Source: a virus. Taken from it: DNA of 35,821 bases. Location: the IMG/VR virus record IMGVR_UViG_3300042375_000704, positions 1 to 35,821 of that record. One strand, written 5' to 3'. Below the pieces are notes generated by a model. That model did not search any database. It saw only the letters and a list, made by a program, of their open reading frames with translations, and had not been told where the DNA came from. Each line of letters begins with the position of its first letter. Within the stretch, counting starts at the first letter, position 1. Shown here piece by piece: positions 1,931 to 35,037 of the stretch. Position numbers and translations under genes: made by a program.

Positions 1931-2539
1931 TTAGCCCTCCTGATTGTCCGCAAGACCCTTCCTGCGTTGCAGTTCAAAGTATATCCGGCCGCATGCCCTC
2001 GCGTCCACAAGGGCATCGTGCGCCCCCTCTAGGCGCTCAGCAAACAAGAAATCGATGCACTCGCTGAGCTTAGGCCACTTGTAGTCTGCCTTGTGCTTGG
2101 AGCGTCCCGAGAGGATTTTGCACACGGGGGTCATAGCCTTCATCGTGCAGAAAGCTCGCTTGCCATAGAGGCGTTCACGGAAGTCGGCGCCAAAGGCGCG
2201 GTGCCAAGCAGTCCGAAGCACGAGAGCGTCAAAGGCGAGGTTGTGGGCAACCAACACGTCAGCGCGGTCCACCATCGCCCCGAACGCGCCCAGCACCGCA
2301 GGCGCCTCCAAGCCATGCGCGTTAGCCTTCGCCTGCGTGATGCCATGCACCTTAGCAGCACCCGGCTGGATGGCCTTGAGGTCGGGGCGCACTAAGCACG
2401 AGAGGGTGGAGAGAACCTCACCGTCATCGCCGCAGAGCAGCGCGGCCAACTGCACCACGTCAGGCTGCTCTGGGTCTTCGGCTTCAAAGCGCCTGTCTAT
2501 CAGGCCGGAAGTCTCGGTATCGAAGATCAAAATGCTCAT
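1931..2539 (-). CDS. DnaQ-like (DEDDh) 3'-5' exonuclease
   Basis: A 202-residue exonuclease of the DnaQ/RNase T superfamily. Exo I is FDTETSG (Asp7, Glu9), Exo II is VAHNLAFDALV, and Exo III is HDALVDA (His174, Asp179), which is the complete DEDDh set. Such proteins remove nucleotides from 3' ends in proofreading, DNA repair or RNA trimming. The start at 2539 puts Exo I at the N-terminus as usual for the family; an in-frame ATG 27 codons earlier would run into the repeat array. It is the first gene leftward of the origin-like region. The polymerase at 22322-24369 has its own (split) exonuclease domain, so this could provide extra proofreading. Confidence 0.85.
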   Translation of the reverse strand: MSILIFDTETSGLIDRRFEAEDPEQPDVVQLAALLCGDDGEVLSTLSCLVRPDLKAIQPGAAKVHGITQAKANAHGLEAPAVLGAFGAMVDRADVLVAHNLAFDALVLRTAWHRAFGADFRERLYGKRAFCTMKAMTPVCKILSGRSKHKADYKWPKLSECIDFLFAERLEGAHDALVDARACGRIYFELQRRKGLADNQEG

Positions 2540-2549
2540 GCACCGGGTA

Positions 2550-2902
2550 TGGACGGCGCCGTAGGGGGATTTCAAGCCTTGGACGTGGACGGTTGCTTTG
2601 GACGGTCTTGGACGGAGCAATATTCCCTCCGTCCAGACAATAACCCCTTGATATCTTAGGGCCTTGGACGGTTTGGACGGTTTGGACGCTTACTTTATAT
2701 CTTTTTGAAAATATATATAGAGGTAGAGAAATAAATGTCCAATAATATTTATCTATTTATTCTTCTCCTCTCTGAGCCAGACTCTCCAAAAACACCGTCC
2801 AACCGTCCAAACCGTCCAAAACTATATGTTTCAATAAGTTAGGGGATGTGCCGCCGTCCAAAACGGACTGTCCAACCGTCCAAAAACATGTCTTCCGTCC
2901 AA
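2550..2902. repeat. Iteron-like array of TTGGACGGT repeats, candidate replication origin
   Basis: At least 15 copies of a 7-9-base unit, consensus TTGGACGGT. Forward copies start at 2550, 2579, 2586, 2598, 2608, 2664, 2673 and 2682; the last three are strictly tandem at 9-base steps. Reverse copies (ACCGTCCAA) start at 2629, 2794, 2802, 2811, 2854, 2868, 2876 and 2895. Except for the copy at 2629, all forward copies lie left of an AT-rich core and all reverse copies lie right of it. The array sits between the primase-helicase terminator and the exonuclease gene. This is the architecture of an initiator-bound origin. A leftward promoter for the exonuclease must also lie here. Confidence 0.8.
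2691..2765. other. AT-rich core between iteron clusters (possible unwinding element)
   Basis: A roughly 75-base tract made almost wholly of A and T, with TATATC, ATATATATAG, AATAATATTTATC and related stretches, in an otherwise moderately GC-rich genome. It is bracketed by iterons pointing inward from both sides and holds one partial copy (GTCCAA at 2737). Such tracts commonly serve as the DNA unwinding element of an origin. It could also contain promoters. Confidence 0.6.
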
Positions 2903-2928
2903 AACGGGGTGCATGGCGCTGCTTCTGC

Positions 2929-2970
2929 AAAAAATACCCCCTGGATTAAATTAATTCAGGGGGTATTTTT
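2929..2970. terminator. Bidirectional rho-independent terminator after the primase-helicase gene
   Basis: A long inverted repeat: TACCCCCTG and CAGGGGGTA arms, extended inward by ATTAA/TTAAT around one G-T mismatch. It is flanked by six A on the left and five T on the right, so it can act in both directions. It begins six bases beyond the stop codon of the primase-helicase gene (2976). It should insulate the origin-like region from transcription of that gene. Confidence 0.88.
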
Positions 2971-2975
2971 CTGAT

Positions 2976-5900
2976 TTATTCTCCAAGGGGTGGCGCTGTC
3001 TCGAACTCAGGATCGAGCATGATGCCGAGGGTTTTGGCATCTATCCGAAAGTGGCCGACGCCATCCCCGCGTCCAGGGATATAGGAAGACGTGGCGCGGT
3101 CCTTCCTTTGGCGCTGCAATACGCCTGCCGCGTCGAGCGCCTTCACCACATTCGCCTGCCTATTTGCGCCTTTGCTCGGCTGAGTGATTCTATCCGCCAA
3201 GATATAAATCAACGCACCGTCATGCCATCCATCCGCTTCGACGCTGTGGCGAGATGTGTCATCTACGGCGAAGATCGACATGTTGAGGCGCTTAGCGATC
3301 CACTGCCGCACGTCATCCACAATCGCTTCTTCCGAGTTCGCCGCAGCGCTCTCCTCAAAAGCACCCCACACGGCGAGAATGGCGTTGGAAATCCGCTCCG
3401 CACTTCCCACCGACAAGATGCCAAACTCCTCAGCCAACTCCGCAGCCAGGGCCAGCAGCGCCGCCACGCGCGCCACCCGAGAGACCAATCCCGTCCTATT
3501 CTCACTCAGCCTCGCCTCATGGTGGCCTAAACGAGCCTGCAACTCCCCAACGCGATCAACATATCCCCGAGAAACCAACCCCTCCACAAAGGCAGGCCCC
3601 GCCCAACCAAAGTTCTCAATCACCCCTGCTTCAAGGCGCCGCAACGCCTCTACGTCCGTCACCACAACGTCAAGCGCGTCCACGTCCACGTCCAGCAGCC
3701 GGGCCGCAGCGCCTTTGGCCATCTTCTTGCCTGTGGCATCCTCGAACCGCTGAGCAAGGCCCTGTTCGCCTGAAATCAGAACGAACGTTTGCCACACCGA
3801 CGACTTGCGCAGCCCTTGCCCCGTGATGTTCATGCGCGCCTTGCCCGCACCAGAGGTCACGGAGAACACAAGGCTCTCCAAGTCCTTCGCCTGCATCATG
3901 GCCGTCTCGTCCAAGGCCAGGATCGTATGGTTGGCGTTCTCAGCCAGCACATCCACAGAGTTCGATGTGCCTCGCAGGCTTACAAGCAAGCCACCATCGC
4001 GATTAGCCTGTGGGTCTGGCGAGGTCCAAGCGGAAACCGCCAATTTCAATGCGGTCGTCTTGCCCTTGGAGGTTTCACCGCACAAAGCCAAGCCACTCGT
4101 TGGCAAGTTGAGCAACCCAACCAATGGACCCACAAAACCAGCAGCCACAGCCAACGCCCAATGTGCGCAGCCTTCCAAATCCAACACGCCATCAATAACG
4201 CTGCGCCACCCCTCAAGGCTGCCACCGCGAGACACCTTCTCACCTACCACGAGGTCGGGCCTGAGAATGGCGTCAGTGGCACCATAGATGGCCCCGCTAG
4301 GAACGGCGAAAGATACCCCGCGCTTGTCCCACCCCCGACTATCCAAAGAGGTATAGATCACGTCAGGGGACTTCACGCGCATATAATGGACAAACGCCTT
4401 GTCAGCGTTAATCTCAAACAACCAACCAAGGGAGTGAAGCCGCCCCAGCACGTCCGTTGGCGCTGTGACCACCCTGCCCTTCTCAATCATCACCGAGACG
4501 GGTTTGCCCCACTTATCGCGCAGCTTGTATTCGGTTGTAATCTCACCGCTATTGGCCGAGATAAATTCGCGGACAAAGGTAATAGGCGTCCAAAGACTGA
4601 CAAAAGCCCCACCACCTTTTTTCTTTTTCTTCTTCGAGCCTTCCTCGTCTTCCTCCTCCGCCTTCTCATAGCCATACCACCACACACCATCCGCGAGGCG
4701 GTAGGAGGCTGCCTGTCCGTGCCACTTCTTCGGCATCGGATATTCCGCCATCACATCTTCTGGTGTCTCGACCTTAACGCTCTCAGCGCCATCAGGCGTG
4801 GCTAATGCTACGTCAGCTTTGAAGCTCTCCAAAGGGGCTTCGTCATCGAACACCCCCATCTCCACGCGCTCCATCTCTGCCGCCACTTCAGGCAGAGTGC
4901 GCGCCCACTCTGCGGCAGACGTATAATCGTTATCAAACAGCACGGCTTGGATGTGGTCAAAGGCAGTGCCCACATAGCCTTCAAGCGGATCGCCGTTGTG
5001 CGTCGAGAACATCCGTGTGTTGCCAGCCACGATGCGGCATCCACCAGGGGCCTCGCTCTTAAGCCACGTCACACGGCCATCGCTCGTATCTATGCGGTAA
5101 TGGGCATAGAGGAAGCGATTGATGCAGTCCGATATGGAGAAGCACCGATTAAAGGCGCCGATCACACCGGGGCGGTTAAAAGCCTCCTGTGCGCGCTCAC
5201 TTTCATCGGAGAAATCAACCGTGACCTCCTCACGTTCAGCTTGCGCCTCCGTATGAAGCCCTTCTACGTCTTTGAGGTAGACTCGGTTATCAAAATTCTC
5301 AACCAAGATATACCTGTCCTGCCCCGCTTCGGCCACAGGGTCTACTGTGCCACCGTCGAACTTTGGCGTGGCAATATAGTGAATACGCTCACGCTCAAAG
5401 AGGGTCTTATCAATGCGAGGCTTGCGGCCCAACTCGCGCGTCCTGCGTGCATACCATGCCCGCCACGCCGCCCCGTCCATCGGCTTTTCCAGCCAAAACC
5501 AACAATGCGCTGAGATTCCAGGCTTCAAACCTGCCGAGGAAGAAAGTTGCAACACATAATCAGCGCAAGCAAAATCAGGGCCAAGCTCCATCCCGATTGC
5601 CTTTTGAGCCCAGGGCATTGGGTTGGCCACGTCAAAGTCGCCCATGCCTTCAATCTGAAGGCCATCAAAATCAAAACAGACCCAATTGATCGGTAAGTCC
5701 TGCACGATGCCCTTACGGCGTAGGAAATGCGGATGCTTTTCGCCTTTCCGCACAAAAGGCACCATCTGCGAAGCAGGAACGGGCTTGCCCTGTTTTCCCA
5801 TCTCCGTGATATGCACCTTACGCTGCTCCTCCAAGGCACACATCTCCGCCAGGGGGTGCCAAACCCCGCGCATGACTGCAAACCTCTCACCCTTTGGGTG

Positions 5901-6071
5901 CTTCAGACGCCCCCTGATAGCAGCAGACAGGCTTTCAAGGCTGTCTACCCCACTAACTACGTCAGAAATCCAATATGTATTGGCCTTTGCGGGCTTCTGG
6001 ATGGGCTTTGAGGCCCAACCCATCGTAAATGTCTTACGCTGTGGGTGGTCGCACGCGAAGATGAAGTGCAT
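2976..6071 (-). CDS. Primase-helicase fusion (AEP-type primase plus DUF927-type helicase)
   Basis: A 1031-residue replication protein. The N-terminal third has archaeo-eukaryotic primase features: VCFDFDG (Asp134, Asp136) as metal-binding motif I, SSSAGLKPG...AHCWFW (His189) as motif II, and a later basic/Asp region. A low-complexity acidic then Lys-rich linker (EEEDEEGSKKKKKK, around residue 480) leads to a DUF927-like RecA/AAA+ ATPase. Its P-loop is GETSKGKT (665-672) and its Walker B is LALDETAM (Asp721, Glu722). Such fusions prime and unwind DNA at phage or plasmid origins. The start overlaps the stop of the upstream gene (TGATG) with AAGG seven bases before it. The gene ends at a strong terminator next to the iteron array, so it is the natural candidate initiator. 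The DUF927 assignment is from motif recognition. Confidence 0.85.
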   Translation of the reverse strand: MHFIFACDHPQRKTFTMGWASKPIQKPAKANTYWISDVVSGVDSLESLSAAIRGRLKHPKGERFAVMRGVWHPLAEMCALEEQRKVHITEMGKQGKPVPASQMVPFVRKGEKHPHFLRRKGIVQDLPINWVCFDFDGLQIEGMGDFDVANPMPWAQKAIGMELGPDFACADYVLQLSSSAGLKPGISAHCWFWLEKPMDGAAWRAWYARRTRELGRKPRIDKTLFERERIHYIATPKFDGGTVDPVAEAGQDRYILVENFDNRVYLKDVEGLHTEAQAEREEVTVDFSDESERAQEAFNRPGVIGAFNRCFSISDCINRFLYAHYRIDTSDGRVTWLKSEAPGGCRIVAGNTRMFSTHNGDPLEGYVGTAFDHIQAVLFDNDYTSAAEWARTLPEVAAEMERVEMGVFDDEAPLESFKADVALATPDGAESVKVETPEDVMAEYPMPKKWHGQAASYRLADGVWWYGYEKAEEEDEEGSKKKKKKGGGAFVSLWTPITFVREFISANSGEITTEYKLRDKWGKPVSVMIEKGRVVTAPTDVLGRLHSLGWLFEINADKAFVHYMRVKSPDVIYTSLDSRGWDKRGVSFAVPSGAIYGATDAILRPDLVVGEKVSRGGSLEGWRSVIDGVLDLEGCAHWALAVAAGFVGPLVGLLNLPTSGLALCGETSKGKTTALKLAVSAWTSPDPQANRDGGLLVSLRGTSNSVDVLAENANHTILALDETAMMQAKDLESLVFSVTSGAGKARMNITGQGLRKSSVWQTFVLISGEQGLAQRFEDATGKKMAKGAAARLLDVDVDALDVVVTDVEALRRLEAGVIENFGWAGPAFVEGLVSRGYVDRVGELQARLGHHEARLSENRTGLVSRVARVAALLALAAELAEEFGILSVGSAERISNAILAVWGAFEESAAANSEEAIVDDVRQWIAKRLNMSIFAVDDTSRHSVEADGWHDGALIYILADRITQPSKGANRQANVVKALDAAGVLQRQRKDRATSSYIPGRGDGVGHFRIDAKTLGIMLDPEFETAPPLGE

Positions 6072-6514
6072 CAGATTACCTTAAAAATACCGTCTACGAG
6101 GCGGAGTGAAACGTTTTTCGCAAGATTGGTAAGCCCTACAACCCGCGTATAGTCAGGCCCACCATCGACGCAGGGGCCACTAAAGGAAAACGTTCTGAAG
6201 TCGTGGCGCCAACGAGAGAAGATGACTTCGCCTTTCATCTCCAATCCATGCCAAAGGTGAGTCGCAACAGAAGTTGCGTCGCAGATCATCCAAGTTGGCA
6301 TATCAAGCCTCGCTTGGGATTTGTAGACGCCAAAGTAGTGGTTAGTGTAGCCCTCACGAGGCTTCGGGGTATAGAACACGGCCACAGGGATAGAGGACCA
6401 AATACCCTTGCTGCTGCGCACCGCAAAGTCGCCTACGTAGAGAGCATCAGCTTCAAGGCGTCGGACCTGCGAACGGTCAAAGAGCCAATAAGGCTCCCCC
6501 ATGTTGATCTGCAT
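6071..6514 (-). CDS. Hypothetical phage protein, 147 residues
   Basis: Unrecognised. It has many aromatic residues and no obvious transmembrane segment. Fragments such as EPYWLFDRSQVRRLEADALYV and WSSIPVAVFYTP suggest a compact beta-rich fold. It is the first gene of the leftward unit, directly before and translationally coupled to the primase-helicase (TGATG), so a role in initiation or its control is possible. A GGGAAAG element about 8 bases upstream supports the ATG at 6514. ATG at 6502 is an alternative start. Confidence 0.72.
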   Translation of the reverse strand: MQINMGEPYWLFDRSQVRRLEADALYVGDFAVRSSKGIWSSIPVAVFYTPKPREGYTNHYFGVYKSQARLDMPTWMICDATSVATHLWHGLEMKGEVIFSRWRHDFRTFSFSGPCVDGGPDYTRVVGLTNLAKNVSLRLVDGIFKVI

Positions 6515-6606: not shown

Positions 6607-6960
6607 ATGACTGAAACTACGAAAAGTAAGAGCTTGGCCCGCTTGCAAGCGTTGGAGACCGTGGCGGAGACGGCGCGGACCATGGAGAAACACGGCTTTG
6701 GCACCCCGGCGCTGGTCATGGCTCTACGCGCCCTCGACGCCCTCTCCGCCGATCCCGCGCCTGCGAAGATGGCGGGGGCCAAGACGGTGCAAATTACGGC
6801 TATTCCCGCTGGTGACGGGTTGGTTGCTTGCGTGTTTGCCCTTAGAGATGACGGCTCAATTTGGGGCAAGCGCGTTGATGACGGGAATTGGTGGCGAGAG
6901 AGCGATATTCCGACCGATGAAGCCTCGTGCCTCCCGTTGGTGAAGGGGGATGGGCCATGA
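6607..6960 (+). CDS. Hypothetical protein, 117 residues, first gene of rightward unit
   Basis: Unrecognised. The N-terminal half is helical and Ala-rich (LARLQALETVAETARTM...ALRALDALS). The C-terminal half reads as a short beta unit with FALRDDGSIWGKRVDDGNWW, reminiscent of small phage proteins that end in a tryptophan-rich strand. AAGGA about nine bases upstream supports the start, and the stop overlaps the next start (ATGA). Codon use here is more GC-rich than in the following replication genes, which fits a separately acquired accessory module. Confidence 0.7.
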   Translation: MTETTKSKSLARLQALETVAETARTMEKHGFGTPALVMALRALDALSADPAPAKMAGAKTVQITAIPAGDGLVACVFALRDDGSIWGKRVDDGNWWRESDIPTDEASCLPLVKGDGP

Positions 6961-7382
6961 GCGCCTACCGTTGCGAGCCGCGCGAGGAACTACGCGGTGT
7001 GGATGGATGGCATTGGCTTACAGGGCACAACCCTGTCCTTTGGATCGCTGATCGCCAAGAGTGGCAATGGGGTGAGGATGATTGGGTGACGCCCGAGGCG
7101 GCTTACCGATATGACTACCGCTACCTCGCCCCCGTCGCCACCCCCGCCGAGGTCGAAAGGCTGCGGGCGGAGGTGGAGCGGTTGCAGGAAGCGTTGATCC
7201 CGCTTGTCGCCGTCATCCCTGATATTTGCGACGCACTGGACTTGGACCCCAACGAAACGTCGATCCGCGTCCGTGTCGATGGTGGCGCGCGGGACGGCGA
7301 AGTGTTGGCCGAGCGCACCCTTACCGACATGCTGACCGCCGCCCGCGCAGCACTCGCGAAGGAGCCGGGCAATGAAGGTTGA
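6957..7382 (+). CDS. Hypothetical protein with short coiled coil, 141 residues
   Basis: Unrecognised. A Trp-rich N-terminal part (WHWLTGHNPVLWIADRQEWQWG) is followed by a heptad-like stretch, EVERLRAEVERLQEALIPL, which should form a coiled coil, and a C-terminal TDMLTAARAALAKE helix. Proteins built this way are common in accessory regions of phages of Gram-negative bacteria and have no assigned function. The start at 6957 is chosen because ATGA overlaps the preceding stop. An upstream in-frame ATG at 6927 would overlap the previous gene more. Confidence 0.68.
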   Translation: MSAYRCEPREELRGVDGWHWLTGHNPVLWIADRQEWQWGEDDWVTPEAAYRYDYRYLAPVATPAEVERLRAEVERLQEALIPLVAVIPDICDALDLDPNETSIRVRVDGGARDGEVLAERTLTDMLTAARAALAKEPGNEG

Positions 7383-7677
7383 GGATGTGCCGGAGCATTT
7401 GATGGGGCTTGGCATTACCGCGTTTCAAGCAACTCCGAACGGAGGCAATGTTGTTGCTTACGCCCTCGCCGCCGTGATCCCCGCCATTCAGAACGAGGCG
7501 TTGGAGCGGGCGGCGGTAATGGCGGATGAACGATATGCGGCGAACAAAGAAGACGCGGTGATCGTATGTCATGCACGCCCCATCAATGGGGCGCTGCTGT
7601 TCAATCATCAGACCCGCTATGACGAAGCCGGACGCATCGCCGCAGCCATCCGCGCACTGAAGGAGACAAAAGAATGA
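7372..7677 (+). CDS. Hypothetical protein, 101 residues
   Basis: Unrecognised. It ends in EAGRIAAAIRALKETKE, a C-terminal pattern shared by many small phage proteins. It contains ALERAAVMADERYAANKED, also typical of them. It overlaps the previous gene by 11 bases and the next one by four (ATGA), so the whole run 6607-8032 is translated as one coupled block. Confidence 0.65.
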   Translation: MKVEDVPEHLMGLGITAFQATPNGGNVVAYALAAVIPAIQNEALERAAVMADERYAANKEDAVIVCHARPINGALLFNHQTRYDEAGRIAAAIRALKETKE

Positions 7678-7844
7678 GCCAATACCTACCAACCAATGAA
7701 GATAAGCTACGCGGCGAACTACTCGTCCTTTTGGACCACATCGACTACGAAAGAGGCGCGTGCCGTCCTAACGAAATGATCGGTGCAGTATTGCCTGTGG
7801 AAGTATTGCGGCGGTGCAAGAATACGCTAAAGGAGACGACATGA
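7674..7844 (+). CDS. Small hypothetical protein, 56 residues
   Basis: A short gene with ATGA overlaps at both ends: its start overlaps the stop at 7675-7677 and its stop overlaps the next start at 7841. The product begins MSQYLPTNEDKLRGELL and contains LLDHIDYERGACRPNEMIG and VLRRCKNTLKE. It is helical and charged, and I do not recognise the family. The exact fit between its neighbours is the main evidence. Confidence 0.65.
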   Translation: MSQYLPTNEDKLRGELLVLLDHIDYERGACRPNEMIGAVLPVEVLRRCKNTLKETT

Positions 7845-8032
7845 CCGCAAAGCGTCAGACGTGCCAATGGTGGGCCGATAGCCGAATTCAGGACTTTAAC
7901 CTAGGGCAATGCCGCATTCGTGCGCCCGGACCTGCGCCATATGAACGCAACAAAAAAGACATCACGTATACAGCACCGTGGCCATTTGTCGGCGCCACAG
8001 ATTGGTGCGGTGAACACCAACTTGCCCGCTAA
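7841..8032 (+). CDS. Small Cys-rich protein, likely metal-binding, 63 residues
   Basis: The product has three conserved-looking cysteines in a TCQWW ... GQCRI ... DWCGEH arrangement with a WPFVGATDW segment. This is the layout of a common family of small phage proteins (C-x-x-W, then CR-x-x-P, then WCGE) thought to bind zinc or another metal. The function is unknown. AAGGAGACGAC stands before the start at 7841. A 40-base gap with a strong ribosome site separates it from the next gene. Confidence 0.72.
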   Translation: MTAKRQTCQWWADSRIQDFNLGQCRIRAPGPAPYERNKKDITYTAPWPFVGATDWCGEHQLAR

Positions 8033-8072
8033 AAAAACCACTGAGCAGTAATCAGCCCTATAAAGGAGCAAA

Positions 8073-10580: not shown

Positions 10581-11432
10581 ATGCTCCCGCGCCAGAACAC
10601 CGTAGAGATTGGCCGTGCCTGCTTCTCCAATGCGCTGCCGCTGTCCTTTATTGCAGGCCCCTGCCAGATCGAGAGCAGGGAGCAGGCACTAGAGATTGCG
10701 CAGTCCCTTGCGGAGTCTGCCAAGCGCCTCGATGTGGACCTCGTGTTTAAGGCCAGCTTCGACAAGGCCAACCGGACTTCGAGCTTTGGCGCGCGTGGCA
10801 TCGGCCTCAAGGCTGCGATCCCCATCTTCCAAGAAATCAGAGAGACTTTCAGGCTACCTGTCATCACGGACGTTCACGAACGCGAACATTGCTATGCCTT
10901 GGAAGGCGCTGTGGACGCGCTACAAATCCCTGCATTCCTCTGTCGGCAGACAGACCTTCTTATGGCAGCAGCCAAGACGTGGCTGCCCGTTATGGTCAAG
11001 AAAGGCCAGTTTCTTGCACCAAACGACATGGCAAACGTCGTAGAAAAGCTCACCGTAGCTGGGAATAGCAAAATCTTACTAGCTGAGCGCGGAACAACAT
11101 TCGGATACAACAATCTTGTCGTTGATATGCGCTCACTACCTATCATGAAGCAGACAGGCTACCCTGTTATCTTTGACGCGACACACTCTGTCCAGCTTCC
11201 TGGCGGGGCAGGCGGAGCTAGCAGCGGCCAGAGGCAGTTCGTAGAGCCTTTGGCCCGTGCTGCGGTGGCTGTGCGCGTGGCGGGGGTGTTCATTGAAACT
11301 CACCCAGACCCCGACAAGGCACTATCTGACGGGCCTAACATGGTGCCCCTGTATAGGATGCACGGCCTCATGCGTCGCTTGACGGCCATAGACGACCTTG
11401 TTAAGAGTGCCAAATACACAGGAGCCTACTAA
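10581..11432 (+). CDS. kdsA: 3-deoxy-8-phosphooctulonate (Kdo-8-P) synthase
   Basis: A 283-residue full-length KdsA (E. coli protein 284). It condenses phosphoenolpyruvate with D-arabinose 5-phosphate to Kdo-8-phosphate, the second step toward the Kdo of lipopolysaccharide. Seen are FKASFDKANRTS, LQIPAFLCRQTDLL, VKKGQFLAPNDM, RGTTFGYNNLVVDM, VIFDATHSVQ and FIETHPDPDKALSDGPN. Cys28 in AGPCQIES, with the His, Glu and Asp of the last motifs, marks the metal-dependent class rather than the metal-free E. coli type. AGGA seven bases upstream sets the start. It sits between a helicase and nrdA, far from the KdsD-like gene (243-863) that would supply its substrate. KdsC and KdsB are not in the window. 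Confidence 0.95.
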   Translation: MLPRQNTVEIGRACFSNALPLSFIAGPCQIESREQALEIAQSLAESAKRLDVDLVFKASFDKANRTSSFGARGIGLKAAIPIFQEIRETFRLPVITDVHEREHCYALEGAVDALQIPAFLCRQTDLLMAAAKTWLPVMVKKGQFLAPNDMANVVEKLTVAGNSKILLAERGTTFGYNNLVVDMRSLPIMKQTGYPVIFDATHSVQLPGGAGGASSGQRQFVEPLARAAVAVRVAGVFIETHPDPDKALSDGPNMVPLYRMHGLMRRLTAIDDLVKSAKYTGAY

Positions 11433-14794: not shown

Positions 14795-16312
14795 TTAATA
14801 CTCCACAATGATTACAACACCGGGGCCACCGGCTCCGCCTGCGCCACCAACGAAACCGCTGGTGCTGTTGCCGGCACCGCCGCCGCCACCACCTGCACCA
14901 TAAAGTCCGCCAGCGCCGCCTGCGCCACCATTGCCTGTAGAACCTGCACCACCACCGCCACCACCTGAATACCCTGCATACGGCCCAAGATTAACTGCTG
15001 TATATGCCGCGCCGGCAGTTCCCGCAGTATTGACCGCACCGCCAGCAGTCCAAACCGGACCAACAGTATCTCGTTGGGTCGCACCGCTAATAGCGCCTGC
15101 TTGAGCAGTTCCGGCAGCGTTAAATCCACCACCAGAACCCCCGGCGGAAGGCCCAGGTGCATTAAGGCTATTTCCGCCTTGATTTGATGCGCCTATTGCG
15201 GTAGTTCCGCCACCGCCAGAACCTACAAATACGCCGTTAGCCCCGCCAGCCACAGTCCCGCCAAACCCTCCCGCACCAGCAGCATTAGCGTTGCTACCTG
15301 CGGCAACGTTTGTGCCAAATCCGCCAGAAGAAGCACCTGTTCCATATCCGCCACCCCCACCCCCACCGGAACCTGTAATTGCAATTCCAGGAGCACCACC
15401 GCCACCACCAGTCGCAATATACGCACCAAACGAAGTGCTGCCGCCTTGGCCACCCTGGCCAGCCAACGTCCCTCCTGTGGGAGTAACACCGCTCTGACCC
15501 GCGACACCACCAGCGGCGATTGTTACCGCAACTGAAGCCGCCAAATCGGTTGCATTAAAAGTACGGTAATACCAACCGGCACTGCCGCCACCGCCGCCAC
15601 CCGACCCGCCGCCTACAGCGGCATACGAACCACCAAATCCTCCCCCACCGCCACCACCGACAACAAGAACCTGAACCGTCTTTGCATTCGGGTTTTTCGT
15701 CCAAGTTGCCGAACCAGCAGACGAAAACACCGTGACAATCGGCGCAATAGCCACGGCGGTATCAAGCGCCCAAGTATTTGTTGCCGTTTTCTTGAGAAAT
15801 CCAGAAGTTCCCGCCAACGCGGCAACAGCATCGAGGTCGGCGTCCCATGCTTGGACATTAGAGTTGATGGCTAGTCCTAGATTGGTGCGGGCCGTTGTCG
15901 CATCGGTAGCGCCTGTGCCACCCAAAGAAATGGGCAGACTCGCGAGTTCTTCGATGGCCCCCGTCGTCGCAGTAGTGCGCCCTAAAACGCGCGCCGTAGC
16001 CATTGTCAGCCCAGAAGACGTGATAGCGCCAGAAGCCGCAGCGCCAAGACTTGTTCGAGCCCCCGCCGCTGTAGAGGCCCCGGTGCCCCCGTAGCCGACG
16101 CCCACCGTTGATCCTTGCCATGTCCCCGTCGCTAGGGTGCCCACGGTAGTGATAGAAGTTGAACCCGGGTATCCACCGAGGACAAAAGTTTGAATCTGCG
16201 TCGCTGATGCTTTGCGCGAACCATAAGGCCCAGCGCCTTGGCTTACTTCAAAGATATCACCCGATACGATTGCGGACGCTGACGAAAGTTCTGAAATTTT
16301 CAAGTTTGCCAT
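14795..16312 (-). CDS. Tail fibre / receptor-binding protein with Gly-rich C-terminal domain
   Basis: A 505-residue fibre protein. It begins MANLKISELSSASAIVSGDIFEVSQG, a virion-attachment type N-terminus. It continues with short fibre repeats (GYGGTGASTAAGARTSLGA; LGGTGATDATTARTNLGL) typical of trimeric tail fibres. Residues about 200-505 are a glycine-rich domain starting VLVVGGGGGGG and containing many GGGGG runs. It ends GGPGVVIIVEY, like the Gly-rich tips that bind receptors in several phages. It probably selects the host. AAGGA nine bases upstream fixes ATG 16312, not the TTG three codons before. It is the largest gene of the inverted cassette. No collagen-like repeats or chaperone domain are visible. 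Confidence 0.85.
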   Translation of the reverse strand: MANLKISELSSASAIVSGDIFEVSQGAGPYGSRKASATQIQTFVLGGYPGSTSITTVGTLATGTWQGSTVGVGYGGTGASTAAGARTSLGAAASGAITSSGLTMATARVLGRTTATTGAIEELASLPISLGGTGATDATTARTNLGLAINSNVQAWDADLDAVAALAGTSGFLKKTATNTWALDTAVAIAPIVTVFSSAGSATWTKNPNAKTVQVLVVGGGGGGGFGGSYAAVGGGSGGGGGGSAGWYYRTFNATDLAASVAVTIAAGGVAGQSGVTPTGGTLAGQGGQGGSTSFGAYIATGGGGGAPGIAITGSGGGGGGGYGTGASSGGFGTNVAAGSNANAAGAGGFGGTVAGGANGVFVGSGGGGTTAIGASNQGGNSLNAPGPSAGGSGGGFNAAGTAQAGAISGATQRDTVGPVWTAGGAVNTAGTAGAAYTAVNLGPYAGYSGGGGGGAGSTGNGGAGGAGGLYGAGGGGGGAGNSTSGFVGGAGGAGGPGVVIIVEY

Positions 16313-16317
16313 GAGGC

Positions 16318-16398
16318 TCAATCCTTATTGCGAAAAAGGTTCCCACCACAACCAATAACAGGCGTAGTGGAAATAAGAGGTATCAGAAAAGCCAACAT
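16318..16398 (-). CDS. Candidate tiny lipoprotein-like peptide, 26 residues
   Basis: A short frame with GGAG seven bases upstream of ATG 16398. The product is hydrophobic at its N-terminus (LAFLIPLISTTPVIGC) and ends CGGNLFRNKD. VIGC fits a lipobox, giving a possible ten-residue lipidated peptide. It ends five bases before the fibre gene and sits in a 152-base gap that otherwise holds nothing obvious. An earlier in-frame ATG would give 40 residues but lacks a ribosome site. It may be real, or just a leader that couples translation to the fibre gene. Confidence 0.4.
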   Translation of the reverse strand: MLAFLIPLISTTPVIGCGGNLFRNKD

Positions 16399-31331: not shown

Positions 31332-32531
31332 ATGAGCGGTTCAATTGCAGCGGGTTCGCTTACTGAACTAGGGTATATTGCGGAAGTGAGTTTCGGCTCT
31401 ACCCCTGTCAGTTCTGCTTTTCAGCGAATCCGGGACGTAAGTTTCTCGGTCAATCTTCAGAAGGAAGCATATCAGTCGGAGGAGCGTCGCTCTGACCGTA
31501 TGCGCCAAGATGTGCGCCACGGCTATCGCTCCGTCACCGGCGACATTGTTGGCGAGCTTTCTCAGCAGTCTTGGGATGACTTTATCCAGGCCATCATGGG
31601 CGGCACTTGGGCAACCGGCGCTTCGGCTCCTTTCTCCAGCGTCGCTTCCAACTCTGCCACCAACCGTATTACGGTGGGCTCTGCCAACTTCCCGACAGCC
31701 GGGATTCGAGTTGGCGATGTTTTCTCTATCGCAGCAAGCCCAGCAGTGGCTGGTCTGACTGATCGCTTCTTCACCGCACTGAGCGTCGGCGTGTCCACCA
31801 TCGAGGTTGAGCCCGGCACTATCGGGACCACGGCTACCGCTTCTGCTACTATCTCGGTTGCAGGCCGCAAGGTTGCCATCGGCAACACCTATCGCTCTTT
31901 CACCATTGAGCGTTGGTTGTCAGACCGCAACCTATACCAGCAGTTCCGTGGCGTCCGTATGAGCCAGATGACTATTTCCATCCCGGCTTCTGGCATGGTC
32001 ACGGCGACCTTCAGTGTCGTTGGCCGCGACGGCACCTCGTTCTCCTCCACCACTGTCGCTTCTGGCTACACCGCGACCCCGCAGACCACCCCGTTCGCCG
32101 CAGTAAACGGCGAAATCTATGAAGGCGGCGTTGTTCTTGGCCTCGTGACCGCCGCCGAAATTTCTATCAACAACACTTTGGCGGGGCCGCAGGTCATCGG
32201 CACCGACCTGACCCCTGATATTCTTTTCGGTCGTTTCGCTGACGTAAGCGGCACGATCACGGTGTTGTTCACCAGCCCAGACATGCACAGCAAGTTTGTG
32301 ACCGAGACGGAAACTACGTTGATTATCCGTCTACAGAACAAGGATGCGCTTGACAGCACTACGGAGTTTGTAAGCATCGTGTTGCCCCGTATCAAGTATA
32401 GCGGCGGTGACGTTGATGACAGCCCTGATACTGGCATCACAGTGACCATGCCTTTCGTGGCGCTGAAGCCTATCGCTGCCAACGTCACGCAGGGCACTTC
32501 GTCTATTTCTATTCAACGCGGTAATGCCTAA
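31332..32531 (+). CDS. Tail tube protein, copy 1 (likely major)
   Basis: A 399-residue phage tail-tube family protein (Phage_tube_2-like). It begins MSGSIAAGSLTELGYIAEVSFG and has IRDVSFSVNLQKEAYQSEERRSDRMRQD, GYRSVTGDI, QSWDDFIQAIMGGTWA, NTYRSFTIERWL, NLYQQFRGVRM, and ILFGRFADVSGTITVLF. It is the shortest complete copy and has the strongest promoter and ribosome site, so it is probably the main tube subunit. Inner residues 130-180 are Thr/Ala rich and may be an inserted loop. It shares its whole length with the copy at 32608. Confidence 0.88.
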   Translation: MSGSIAAGSLTELGYIAEVSFGSTPVSSAFQRIRDVSFSVNLQKEAYQSEERRSDRMRQDVRHGYRSVTGDIVGELSQQSWDDFIQAIMGGTWATGASAPFSSVASNSATNRITVGSANFPTAGIRVGDVFSIAASPAVAGLTDRFFTALSVGVSTIEVEPGTIGTTATASATISVAGRKVAIGNTYRSFTIERWLSDRNLYQQFRGVRMSQMTISIPASGMVTATFSVVGRDGTSFSSTTVASGYTATPQTTPFAAVNGEIYEGGVVLGLVTAAEISINNTLAGPQVIGTDLTPDILFGRFADVSGTITVLFTSPDMHSKFVTETETTLIIRLQNKDALDSTTEFVSIVLPRIKYSGGDVDDSPDTGITVTMPFVALKPIAANVTQGTSSISIQRGNA

Positions 32532-32607: not shown

Positions 32608-35037
32608 ATGAGTGGCAGTATTGCGGCTGGATCACTTGTAGAATACGGATACACGTCTGAAGTCGTTTTTGGCTCGACCCCAACTGGCCGCGCTTTCAAA
32701 AAAGTTCGCGACGTTGGCTTTTCACTAAACCTACAAAAAGAAATTTACCAATCCGAAGAACGTAAAACAGACCGTATGCGCCAAGACGCGAGGCACGGGT
32801 ATCGCTCCGTAGCTGGCGAAGTGAACGGTGATATATCTGAGCAGTCATGGGATGATTTCCTAGAGGCAGTTATAGGGGGCACTTGGGCTAATATTACCCC
32901 TGTGTCTACTACCCTCAATATCAGCATCGACTCTACTGCCAATAAGATCACTTCGCTAACTTCTTCTTTTGATTTTCTTACCAGCGGAATTACGGTTGGC
33001 GACGTATTTTTTGTCGTAACAAACCCCGGTCCCGTCTCTGGCTTTAGCGGTGAATACCTCACAGTATTGAGTGCCACTGCTTCTACGATTGAAGTTGAGC
33101 CAAATACGATTACGACAACGGCGGCATCTGTCTCGGTTGCTCGGATTTATGAAGTGGGCCGCAAAGTTTCTATCGGCAACACATACCGCTCTTTCACCTT
33201 CGAGCGTTGGTTGACTGACAGGAACCTATATCAGCAGTTTCGCGGCGTCCGTATAAACCAAGTCACTTTTTCTATCCCCGCCTCTGGCCTTGCTTCCTTG
33301 ACCTTTGGTGTTTTAGGGCAAGACGCAACTATATTTTCTTCTACTACGGTCGCCTCAGTTTACTCAGAAGCGCCGCAGACAACGCCTTTTGCTGCGGTAA
33401 ATGGTGCGTTGTTTGAAGGAGGACAGGTTCTAGGCCTCGTGACGGCTGCGGAAATCACCCTCAACAACAACATGGCTTCTTCTCAAGTTGTCGGCTCCAA
33501 CATCGTTCCTGATATCTTGTTTGGCAGATACGCGGACGTGACAGGGACCATCACGGTTCTTTTCTCTGACGCAAGCGCACTTAATAAGTTCGTAGACCAA
33601 GTTGAATCTAGTTTGGTTATCCGCCTACAAAATAAAGACGTGCTTGACCAAGACACGCAATTCATCAACCTCGTTCTGCCACGTATCAAATACTCCGGGG
33701 GCGACATTGACGACGGTGTAGAAGGCGGTGTGACACTGACTTTGCCGTTTATTGCCTTGGCCCCTCTATCAATTAATCCAGCGCAGGGTTCTACTTCCCT
33801 TTTCATTCAAGCAAGCAACGTTGTCCCTCGGACTGAGTTGTTCGACTTTTTGTCTGGCGTGCCTTCTGGCTGGACCTACAGCCGCGCTAGTAACGCCACC
33901 TATTTCAGCAGCACAGGTGTTCTGACTGTTGCGAGTGCGGATGTGGCGCGAGTTGATTACGACCCAAGTGGGTTGGCGGTGCGGGGTCTGCTCTGTGAAC
34001 CAAGCCGCACAAATTGGGTTCGCAACAGCATCGCTAGTGCTACGGTAGCCGGAACGCCGGGAACACTACCTACGACTTGGAGCGGAGGCACCGCTTCAAG
34101 TGTAACTCGGCAGATCGTGGGGACCGGAACAGAAGACGGTATCGAATATATTGATATAAGGTGGGCGGGAAATGGTGGAGAGGCCGCGTTTGAATTAGCT
34201 TTCGATACAGGCACACACACGTCCGCTGCACAAACCGAAGTGTGGACAGGAAGTGTTTTTCTAAAATTGGTCGCTGGTTCTTTTACGGGTTTGGGGGGAA
34301 CTGGTCCACGAGTTTATGAATTTCCTGGCGTAGACCAAACCAGAACGGACATAAGAAGCATCGTGACAGGCGCTGCACTTAGAACGCAGCGTATCCAAGT
34401 ATCAAGAACGAATGTAAACGCGGGCACCACCCATATGGGGATGCGTTTTCTCATAACGCCATCGGCAACAGCGTGGGACTTCACGCTGCGTTTTGGCCTT
34501 CCACAACTCGAATTGGGCTCGTTCGCTACAAGCCCTATTAGAACTTCAGGCGCCACTGTAACCCGCGCCGCTGATCGTTTGACATACGACCTCGCTGCCA
34601 ACGCGCCTTGGTTTCAATCGTCAAGCGGATATACATACGGGATGGAATATATCACCCCAAGTTTGACAGAAACTAGCCAAGTAATATTAGGTGTCTCTAC
34701 CGGTTCTTTCCAAAATTCAAATTATTTTGACGGCAATAACTCTTTCGTCCATTTGGTTAACGGCATAAGCGTGACCTCGTTTTTTGACACGCGTATAAAC
34801 GCGCCACTTCAGACCAACAAGGTCGCCGCCACCGTCAATTTCAGGGAAATTCTTTTTACTGTGAACAACAGCAGCGGCACCGTTTTGTCCAATCCAGGCT
34901 ACCCCAACATAACGACGCTCGCAGTTTTAAGCTCGCCATGGTCGCCAGCAGGCAACTACAGAGCGGGGTGGGCCCGCACCGTCACTCTAAGCAACTACCG
35001 ATACACTGCCGCCGAACTTCGGAGCCTTACGACATGA
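32608..35037 (+). CDS. Tail tube protein, copy 2, with added C-terminal adhesin-like region
   Basis: An 809-residue fusion. Residues 1 to about 395 follow tube copy 1 (MSGSIAAGSLVEYGYTSEVVFG, QKEIYQSEERKTDRMRQD, SEQSWDDFLEAVIGGTW, NLYQQFRGVRI, ILFGRYADVTGTITVLF). The extra 410 residues start where copy 1 ends. They include FDFLSGVPSGWTYSRASNATY, GLLCEPSRTNWVRNS and LELGSFATSPIRTSG, which are typical of phage spike/fibre carbohydrate-binding domains. A final beta-rich, lectin-like segment (about 660-809) follows. The protein should be built into the tube with its extra domains on the outside. The ribosome site is weak. Stop overlaps the next start (ATGA). Confidence 0.85.
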   Translation: MSGSIAAGSLVEYGYTSEVVFGSTPTGRAFKKVRDVGFSLNLQKEIYQSEERKTDRMRQDARHGYRSVAGEVNGDISEQSWDDFLEAVIGGTWANITPVSTTLNISIDSTANKITSLTSSFDFLTSGITVGDVFFVVTNPGPVSGFSGEYLTVLSATASTIEVEPNTITTTAASVSVARIYEVGRKVSIGNTYRSFTFERWLTDRNLYQQFRGVRINQVTFSIPASGLASLTFGVLGQDATIFSSTTVASVYSEAPQTTPFAAVNGALFEGGQVLGLVTAAEITLNNNMASSQVVGSNIVPDILFGRYADVTGTITVLFSDASALNKFVDQVESSLVIRLQNKDVLDQDTQFINLVLPRIKYSGGDIDDGVEGGVTLTLPFIALAPLSINPAQGSTSLFIQASNVVPRTELFDFLSGVPSGWTYSRASNATYFSSTGVLTVASADVARVDYDPSGLAVRGLLCEPSRTNWVRNSIASATVAGTPGTLPTTWSGGTASSVTRQIVGTGTEDGIEYIDIRWAGNGGEAAFELAFDTGTHTSAAQTEVWTGSVFLKLVAGSFTGLGGTGPRVYEFPGVDQTRTDIRSIVTGAALRTQRIQVSRTNVNAGTTHMGMRFLITPSATAWDFTLRFGLPQLELGSFATSPIRTSGATVTRAADRLTYDLAANAPWFQSSSGYTYGMEYITPSLTETSQVILGVSTGSFQNSNYFDGNNSFVHLVNGISVTSFFDTRINAPLQTNKVAATVNFREILFTVNNSSGTVLSNPGYPNITTLAVLSSPWSPAGNYRAGWARTVTLSNYRYTAAELRSLTT

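Follow-up and report, generated by a model that had tools for sequence, protein, structure and literature searches.

Facing iteron sets 3′ of a DUF927 primase-helicase gene form a probable replication origin in a tailed phage

We analyzed the full 35,821-nucleotide stretch of IMG/VR virus record IMGVR_UViG_3300042375_000704 (hereafter “the window”), with a focus on a repeat array located 3′ of a primase-helicase gene. The window encodes its own DNA polymerase, a Gp2.5-like single-stranded DNA-binding protein, a ribonucleotide reductase, a tail tube, and a connector, i.e., its own replisome together with virion genes, which identifies the record as a phage and not as a satellite. The same gene content sets it apart from PICI elements, small satellites that lack virion and replisome genes. 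The array begins ~74 bp past the primase-helicase stop codon, beyond a terminator hairpin that is probably bidirectional because it is symmetric, and is found at the same position in two related contigs (L004 and L005, see below). An earlier reading of the letters made without database searches (hereafter the first-pass annotation) had placed the array between this terminator and an exonuclease gene, beside the primase-helicase, all of which was as described (Table 1).

Table 1 Features of the array region and of the genes around it (positions in the window).
Feature	Position	Strand	Remarks
DnaQ-type exonuclease (RNase_T)	1931–2539	−	Next gene past the array; 99% identical in L005
Look-alike outermost copy, TATGGACGG	2549–2557	+	Unchanged in L004 and L005
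Co-varying block: initiator gene end (~53 codons) and array	2584–3135		66% identity to L005 inside, 94% outside
Left iteron set, outer copies	2585–2593, 2598–2606, 2608–2616	+	Plus one reverse copy near 2628
Left iteron set, inner triad	2664–2672, 2673–2681, 2682–2690 (variant GGACGC)	+	Set spans 2585–2690
AT-rich core between triads, proposed unwinding element	2691–2793 (103 bp)		Least stable 75 bp of the record at 2689–2763
Right iteron set, inner triad	2794–2802, 2802–2810, 2811–2819	−	Set spans 2794–2902
Right iteron set, outer copies	2853–2861, 2867–2875 (variant GGACAG), 2875–2883, 2894–2902	−
Terminator hairpin, symmetric	2930–2970		Between primase-helicase stop and array
Primase-helicase (1031 aa)	2976–6071	−	Pfam DUF927, E = 6e-34; PHROG primase/helicase
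Primase-helicase C-terminal ~86 codons, putative HTH-type iteron reader	2976–3236	−	Last ~53 codons (to 3135) in the divergent block
147-aa protein	6071–6514	−	Directly upstream of primase-helicase; 97% identical in L005

The array covers ~320 bp (2585–2902) and contains 12 exact GGACGG units, nearly all of them as (T)TTGGACGGT, along with two variants; the earlier count of about 16 copies is reached only when degenerate copies are included. Allowing ≤1 mismatch, TTGGACGGT matched 16 times in the whole window compared to a shuffle mean of 6.7, and 13 of these matches fell within 2585–2902. The repeats proved real when set against shuffled sequence: the densest 360 bp contain 13 TGGACGG, whereas none of 300 dinucleotide shuffles of the whole record had more than 2, and across all 400-bp windows of the 35.8 kb, the array window had the highest copy number of any 7-mer (13; runner-up, 5). 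The units are also strongly oriented: six of the seven left copies point right and all seven right copies point left (Fisher P = 0.005), so that the first-pass description of forward copies left and reverse copies right of a core applies to 13 of 14 units, the sole exception being the reverse copy near 2628. Three tightly spaced copies per side, also described earlier, were recovered as two triads, with spacings of 9/9 bp on the left and 8/9 bp on the right. The look-alike copy next to the exonuclease gene is probably not an iteron, since it is invariant in both relatives while the other copies change. An Rfam search returned no RNA family.

The tract between the two sets, reported in the first-pass annotation as 75 AT-rich bases, stands out for its low stability: positions 2689–2763 (81% AT) are the least stable 75 bp of the 35.8-kb record, at −1.02 kcal/mol per step for a record mean of −1.46 (sd 0.08) and a next-lowest value of −1.18, i.e., 5.4 sd off the mean. 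GC skew, which had been proposed as a check, displayed no origin signature and is uninformative here because it mostly follows gene direction.

Next, we compared the array between relatives. Only three close relatives were present in the collections, one of them without the array region, and the co-variation described below thus rests on three sequences. Scans using the exonuclease and the helicase C-terminus as queries retrieved the same two relatives again, and a genome-contig search with the helicase yielded a single remote fragment, from a Rhodospirillales bin. In these two IMG/VR contigs, L004 and L005, the primase-helicase is 78% and 94% identical to that of the window, respectively, and both gene order and mirrored array are the same. 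The first-pass annotation had suggested looking for the repeat beside the same gene in related phages: the array is indeed kept in both relatives covering the region, with its unit switched throughout, to TTTGGGCGG in L004 (GGGCGG) and TTTGGATGG in L005 (GGATGG). Within a constant TTTGG..GG frame, the two variable bases of TGG..GG are AC in 12 of 12 units in the window, AT in 14 of 15 in L005, and GC in 11 of 12 in L004, a tally that omits the outermost TATGGACGG copy next to the exonuclease, identical in all three, and, for L004, CATGGGAGG at the exonuclease start codon. Exact tandem-unit matches occurred only at the array site in the whole 55-kb and 64-kb relative contigs, which thus carry a single array each, although these contigs may be incomplete. 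A dozen sites changing the same base together would be expected from recognition by a protein, and not from chance.

Differences between the primase-helicase and its L005 homolog are concentrated at the C-terminal end: 20 of the last 86 residues differ, compared to 41 of the 945 residues elsewhere (Fisher P = 1e-8). Synonymous divergence is raised there as well (pS of 0.52 at the C-terminus vs 0.20 in the remainder of the gene, and 0.11 for the exonuclease), so that protein-level selection alone does not account for the pattern and the DNA segment itself is more diverged. An unbiased search for low-identity segments between the window and L005, ranging from the 147-aa gene to the exonuclease gene, identified 2584–3135 as the maximal segment, with a score of 236 for a highest value of 29 across 1000 permutations. 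This block ends before the exonuclease gene, and the AT-rich core within it is still recognizably homologous to that of L005 (partly conserved) although the iterons switch. Since non-coding DNA always diverges faster, it is the coding part of the block, together with the concerted change of unit, that carries the weight here. Both a segment exchange with a relative about as distant as L004 and a joint divergence of gene end and array would fit these data.

The protein encoded beside the array combines an N-terminal primase-like part (WVCFDFD and SAHCWF motifs) with a helicase half made of DUF927 and AAA+ (Walker A at residues 665–672), and no TOPRIM family match was obtained in Pfam. The best PDB matches of the helicase half were 5dgk (SCCmec Cch) and 8tch, the structure of a “pathogenicity island protein.” With a profile of 11 phage helicases, including eight homologs added from deposited phages, these matches reached E = 2e-62 for 8tch and E = 1e-37 for 5dgk, and spanned most of the helicase length, into the C-terminal domain, which makes the window protein an initiator of the SaPIbov1 Rep/Cch type (DUF927, AAA+). 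Studied members of this helicase family bind iterons just 3′ of their own gene via the C-terminal domain (PMC7581432, PMC6092414). In SaPI Rep, this domain recognizes iterons that directly follow the gene, the protein apparently acting as two hexamers, while Cch2 binds and unwinds repeats downstream of its gene, and its isolated C-terminal domain binds them (PMC7581432). For the window protein, an HMM built from other phages aligned through residue 996, and a Pfam search recognized no HTH in the C-terminal domain; the Pfam “Cch helix turn helix” was found at the C-terminus of four related phage DUF927 helicases. Profile–profile comparison with other helicase C-termini gave weak matches (probabilities of 8% and 0.5%), and AlphaFold models were too poor to use (pLDDT 32 for the helicase half and 40 for the 147-aa protein). 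The first-pass annotation had named either the primase-helicase or the 147-residue protein as the candidate binder. The primase-helicase C-terminus is the likely reader of the iterons, because the low-identity block covers its codons together with the array, whereas the 147-residue protein is disfavored because it includes no block of extra divergence.

To place this layout in a broader context, we searched for arrays in other phages. When DNA was scanned, without use of gene information, for TTTGGNNGG-type units in facing pairs 100–130 bp apart, the scan returned L004, L005, and a further contig, L013. In each of them, the array is 3′ of a primase-helicase gene; the L013 array lies ~15 bp 3′ of a PriCT_2 primase-helicase gene. 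A scan for exact 18-mers gave four matches, three of which were rejected as origins because they were coding repeats such as KPSKPSK. The one kept, in contig L009, consists of two facing pairs ~68 bp 3′ of a D5/DUF5906 primase gene. There (L009:7601–7730), the unit TTTGGACGG is the same as in the window, and the D5-type primase is unrelated to the window’s; chance or convergent recognition could each explain this common unit. Among eight deposited phages with DUF927 genes, the top repeat window of the locus was exactly 3′ of the DUF927 gene for four, namely phiAH14b (GGGGAACA), Epona (AGGTGAAAC), Klebsiella phage P12620-1 (TGAACCAAC), and Ruminococcus phiRg507T2_3 (GTAACAA). These units are unrelated to that of the window, while the arrays are similar and in the same place. 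Weaker arrays were observed 3′ of the DUF927 helicase gene in Jekyll and AC844P2, and none 3′ of this gene in U10 and Rollin. The mirror symmetry, called unusual in the first-pass annotation, is thus normal for this initiator class, as similar arrays lie 3′ of helicase genes in other phages. Klebsiella phage P12620-1 offers a good cultured system for testing the origin model; its array (L022:4338–4628), 3′ of a DUF927 helicase gene that is not annotated, has 11 copies of GAACCAA.

Taken together, the array geometry, its position relative to the gene, the helicase family, a conserved layout, and a helicase C-terminus that has diverged jointly with the iterons point to a replication origin. The origin proposed in the first-pass annotation is well supported by an array kept beside the same gene in both relatives and at an equivalent place in unrelated phages, and by the adjacent helicase belonging to a family whose studied members read iterons just behind their own gene. 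We consider it highly likely that the array is an origin working along the following lines. The C-terminal domain of the primase-helicase would bind the 9-bp units as two facing assemblies that nucleate on the two triads, with outer copies acting as reinforcing sites. By analogy, the two assemblies would then melt the AT-rich core between them through their DUF927/AAA+ motors, each loading on one strand as one of two motors. Forks would leave in both directions, with the N-terminal primase domain priming and the phage DNA polymerase extending. Finally, the end of the initiator gene and the origin would form a single specificity cassette, exchanged or diverging together.

Repeats of this kind could also serve other functions. 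As a transcriptional operator, they would be bound by a repressor or activator of the exonuclease operon and play no role in replication, which would suit an array 5′ of the exonuclease gene with an invariant outermost copy and flank. However, no sigma-70-like promoter was found in 2400–3100, and an operator would need far fewer than the 14 sites that are arranged here as mirrored sets on the two sides of a melting core. Moreover, the layout recurs in phages with a different downstream gene, and the divergent block takes in the helicase C-terminus instead of a regulator, which makes an operator very unlikely. A centromere-like or packaging site (parS/pac), with another phage protein as its binder, e.g., the 147-aa protein, would fit the density of the repeats and the presence nearby of a small protein without assigned function. 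We regard this as extremely unlikely: no partition protein was found among the ORFs searched near the array, the array tracks helicase genes in unrelated phages, and the 147-aa protein shares 97% identity with its L005 homolog, with an ordinary pS of 0.195, though every iteron differs.

A closer alternative retains the origin but changes what is recognized, i.e., the mirrored triads would extrude a ~24-bp cruciform and the helicase would read this structure instead of the 9-bp unit. A strong hairpin is predicted for the array region (−32 kcal/mol, z = −6.9), and plasmid pRN1 and phage BIP-1 are proposed to use a stem-loop 3′ of a replication gene (PMC4234260). Such a hairpin would nonetheless be expected from any mirrored iterons, and triad spacing is unequal (9/9 on one side, 8/9 on the other). 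The triads may be read as a hairpin, but this leaves the scattered copies unexplained: about half of the copies lie outside the triads and yet have the same unit and undergo the same switch, and the scattered copies of several phages form no single stem. A stem-loop origin is therefore very unlikely.

The origin read as facing iterons is closest to the Rep-ori systems of SaPIs and PICIs (SaPIbov1 Rep; Gram-negative PICI pri-rep-ori). The helicases are related (8tch, E = 2e-62 for the phage-family profile), the ori follows the initiator gene directly on its 3′ side, an AT-rich core lies between two sets of iterons, and, as in some PICIs, the primase is fused to the helicase. In PICIs, the origin is 3′ of the initiator gene and always has an AT-rich region with one iteron set on either side, a plan said to be absent from all other known bacterial replicons (PMC6092414). 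Unlike SaPIs and PICIs, the window is a tailed phage with its own DNA polymerase, single-stranded DNA-binding protein, ribonucleotide reductase, and structural genes, and its iterons are different. Cch of SCCmec likewise carries DUF927, and the C-terminal domain of Cch2 binds direct repeats that immediately follow the Cch2 gene (PMC7581432), but the Cch2 site consists of three 5-nt iterons in one 23-bp stretch instead of two facing sets, and Cch2 belongs to the Primase_Cterm/D5 group with its primase as a separate complex. Lambda O and plasmid Rep_3 origins have a cognate initiator of those families and direct repeats on one side of an AT-rich region, whereas the initiator here is DUF927/AAA+ and the repeats point inward from both sides. 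Phage P4 uses two separate cis sites (ori and crr). It resembles the window in that its alpha protein joins primase, helicase, and origin-binding winged-helix domain and in having repeats at the origin. The searches made here turned up no similarity to P4. P4 alpha has a TOPRIM primase (PMC4234260). In plasmid pRN1, too, the origin closely follows, on the 3′ side, the gene of a primase-helicase that ends in a winged-helix domain (PMC4234260), though this origin is reported as a stem-loop without iterons, whereas the window has iterons, with a stem possible.

On the features found here, the SaPI/PICI-type Rep-ori plan is present in a tailed phage with its own polymerase. In some dairy phages, the origin is known to lie behind a replication gene. 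For the PICI-type plan in self-sufficient tailed phages, no description was found in the open-access literature searched. For a switch of origin type in which reader domain and sites change jointly, the PLE RepA of V. cholerae is a direct parallel, in that the DNA-binding domain covaries with the origin iterons and the pair is exchanged between elements (PMC8263062). RepA is a different type of initiator, however, i.e., RepA_N-type without helicase or primase and with an N-terminal DNA-binding domain, and PLE is a satellite.

With confidence divided about equally for and against, we propose that the last ~53 initiator codons and the origin form an exchangeable cassette, that near-identical phages thereby fall into mutually incompatible origin types (GGACGG, GGATGG, and GGGCGG) as a phage counterpart of PLE replicon swapping, and that the PICI-type plan is common among DUF927 phages. 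One exchange would then move both reader and origin, which suggests why the origin lies behind the gene end encoding its reader. If true, origin-targeting nucleases, satellites, or competing phages could be what drives cassette exchange. The lineage also supplies natural pairs of initiators that are 94% identical yet have different iterons, and these are well suited to mapping which residues read which base.

Outside of the array region, several other features were observed in the window. Auxiliary metabolic genes are found among the replication genes, namely a class I DAHP synthase (10581–11432) and a SIS-domain protein similar to arabinose-5-phosphate isomerase (243–863). Between the primase-helicase operon and a deoxyribosyltransferase gene, a patchily conserved stretch of small ORFs (6665–8033) interrupts an otherwise 91–94% alignment with L005 and L006, which suggests an exchange hotspot of accessory early genes. 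A Gly-rich tail-fiber-like gene with CGCCACC repeats (14795–16321, minus strand) lies between two ribonucleotide reductase subunit genes. Finally, two adjacent proteins (31332–32531 and 32608–35037) both match Phage_tube_2 and the PHROG minor tail protein, the second with an extension of ~400 aa, and possibly derive from a tandem duplication of a tail gene.
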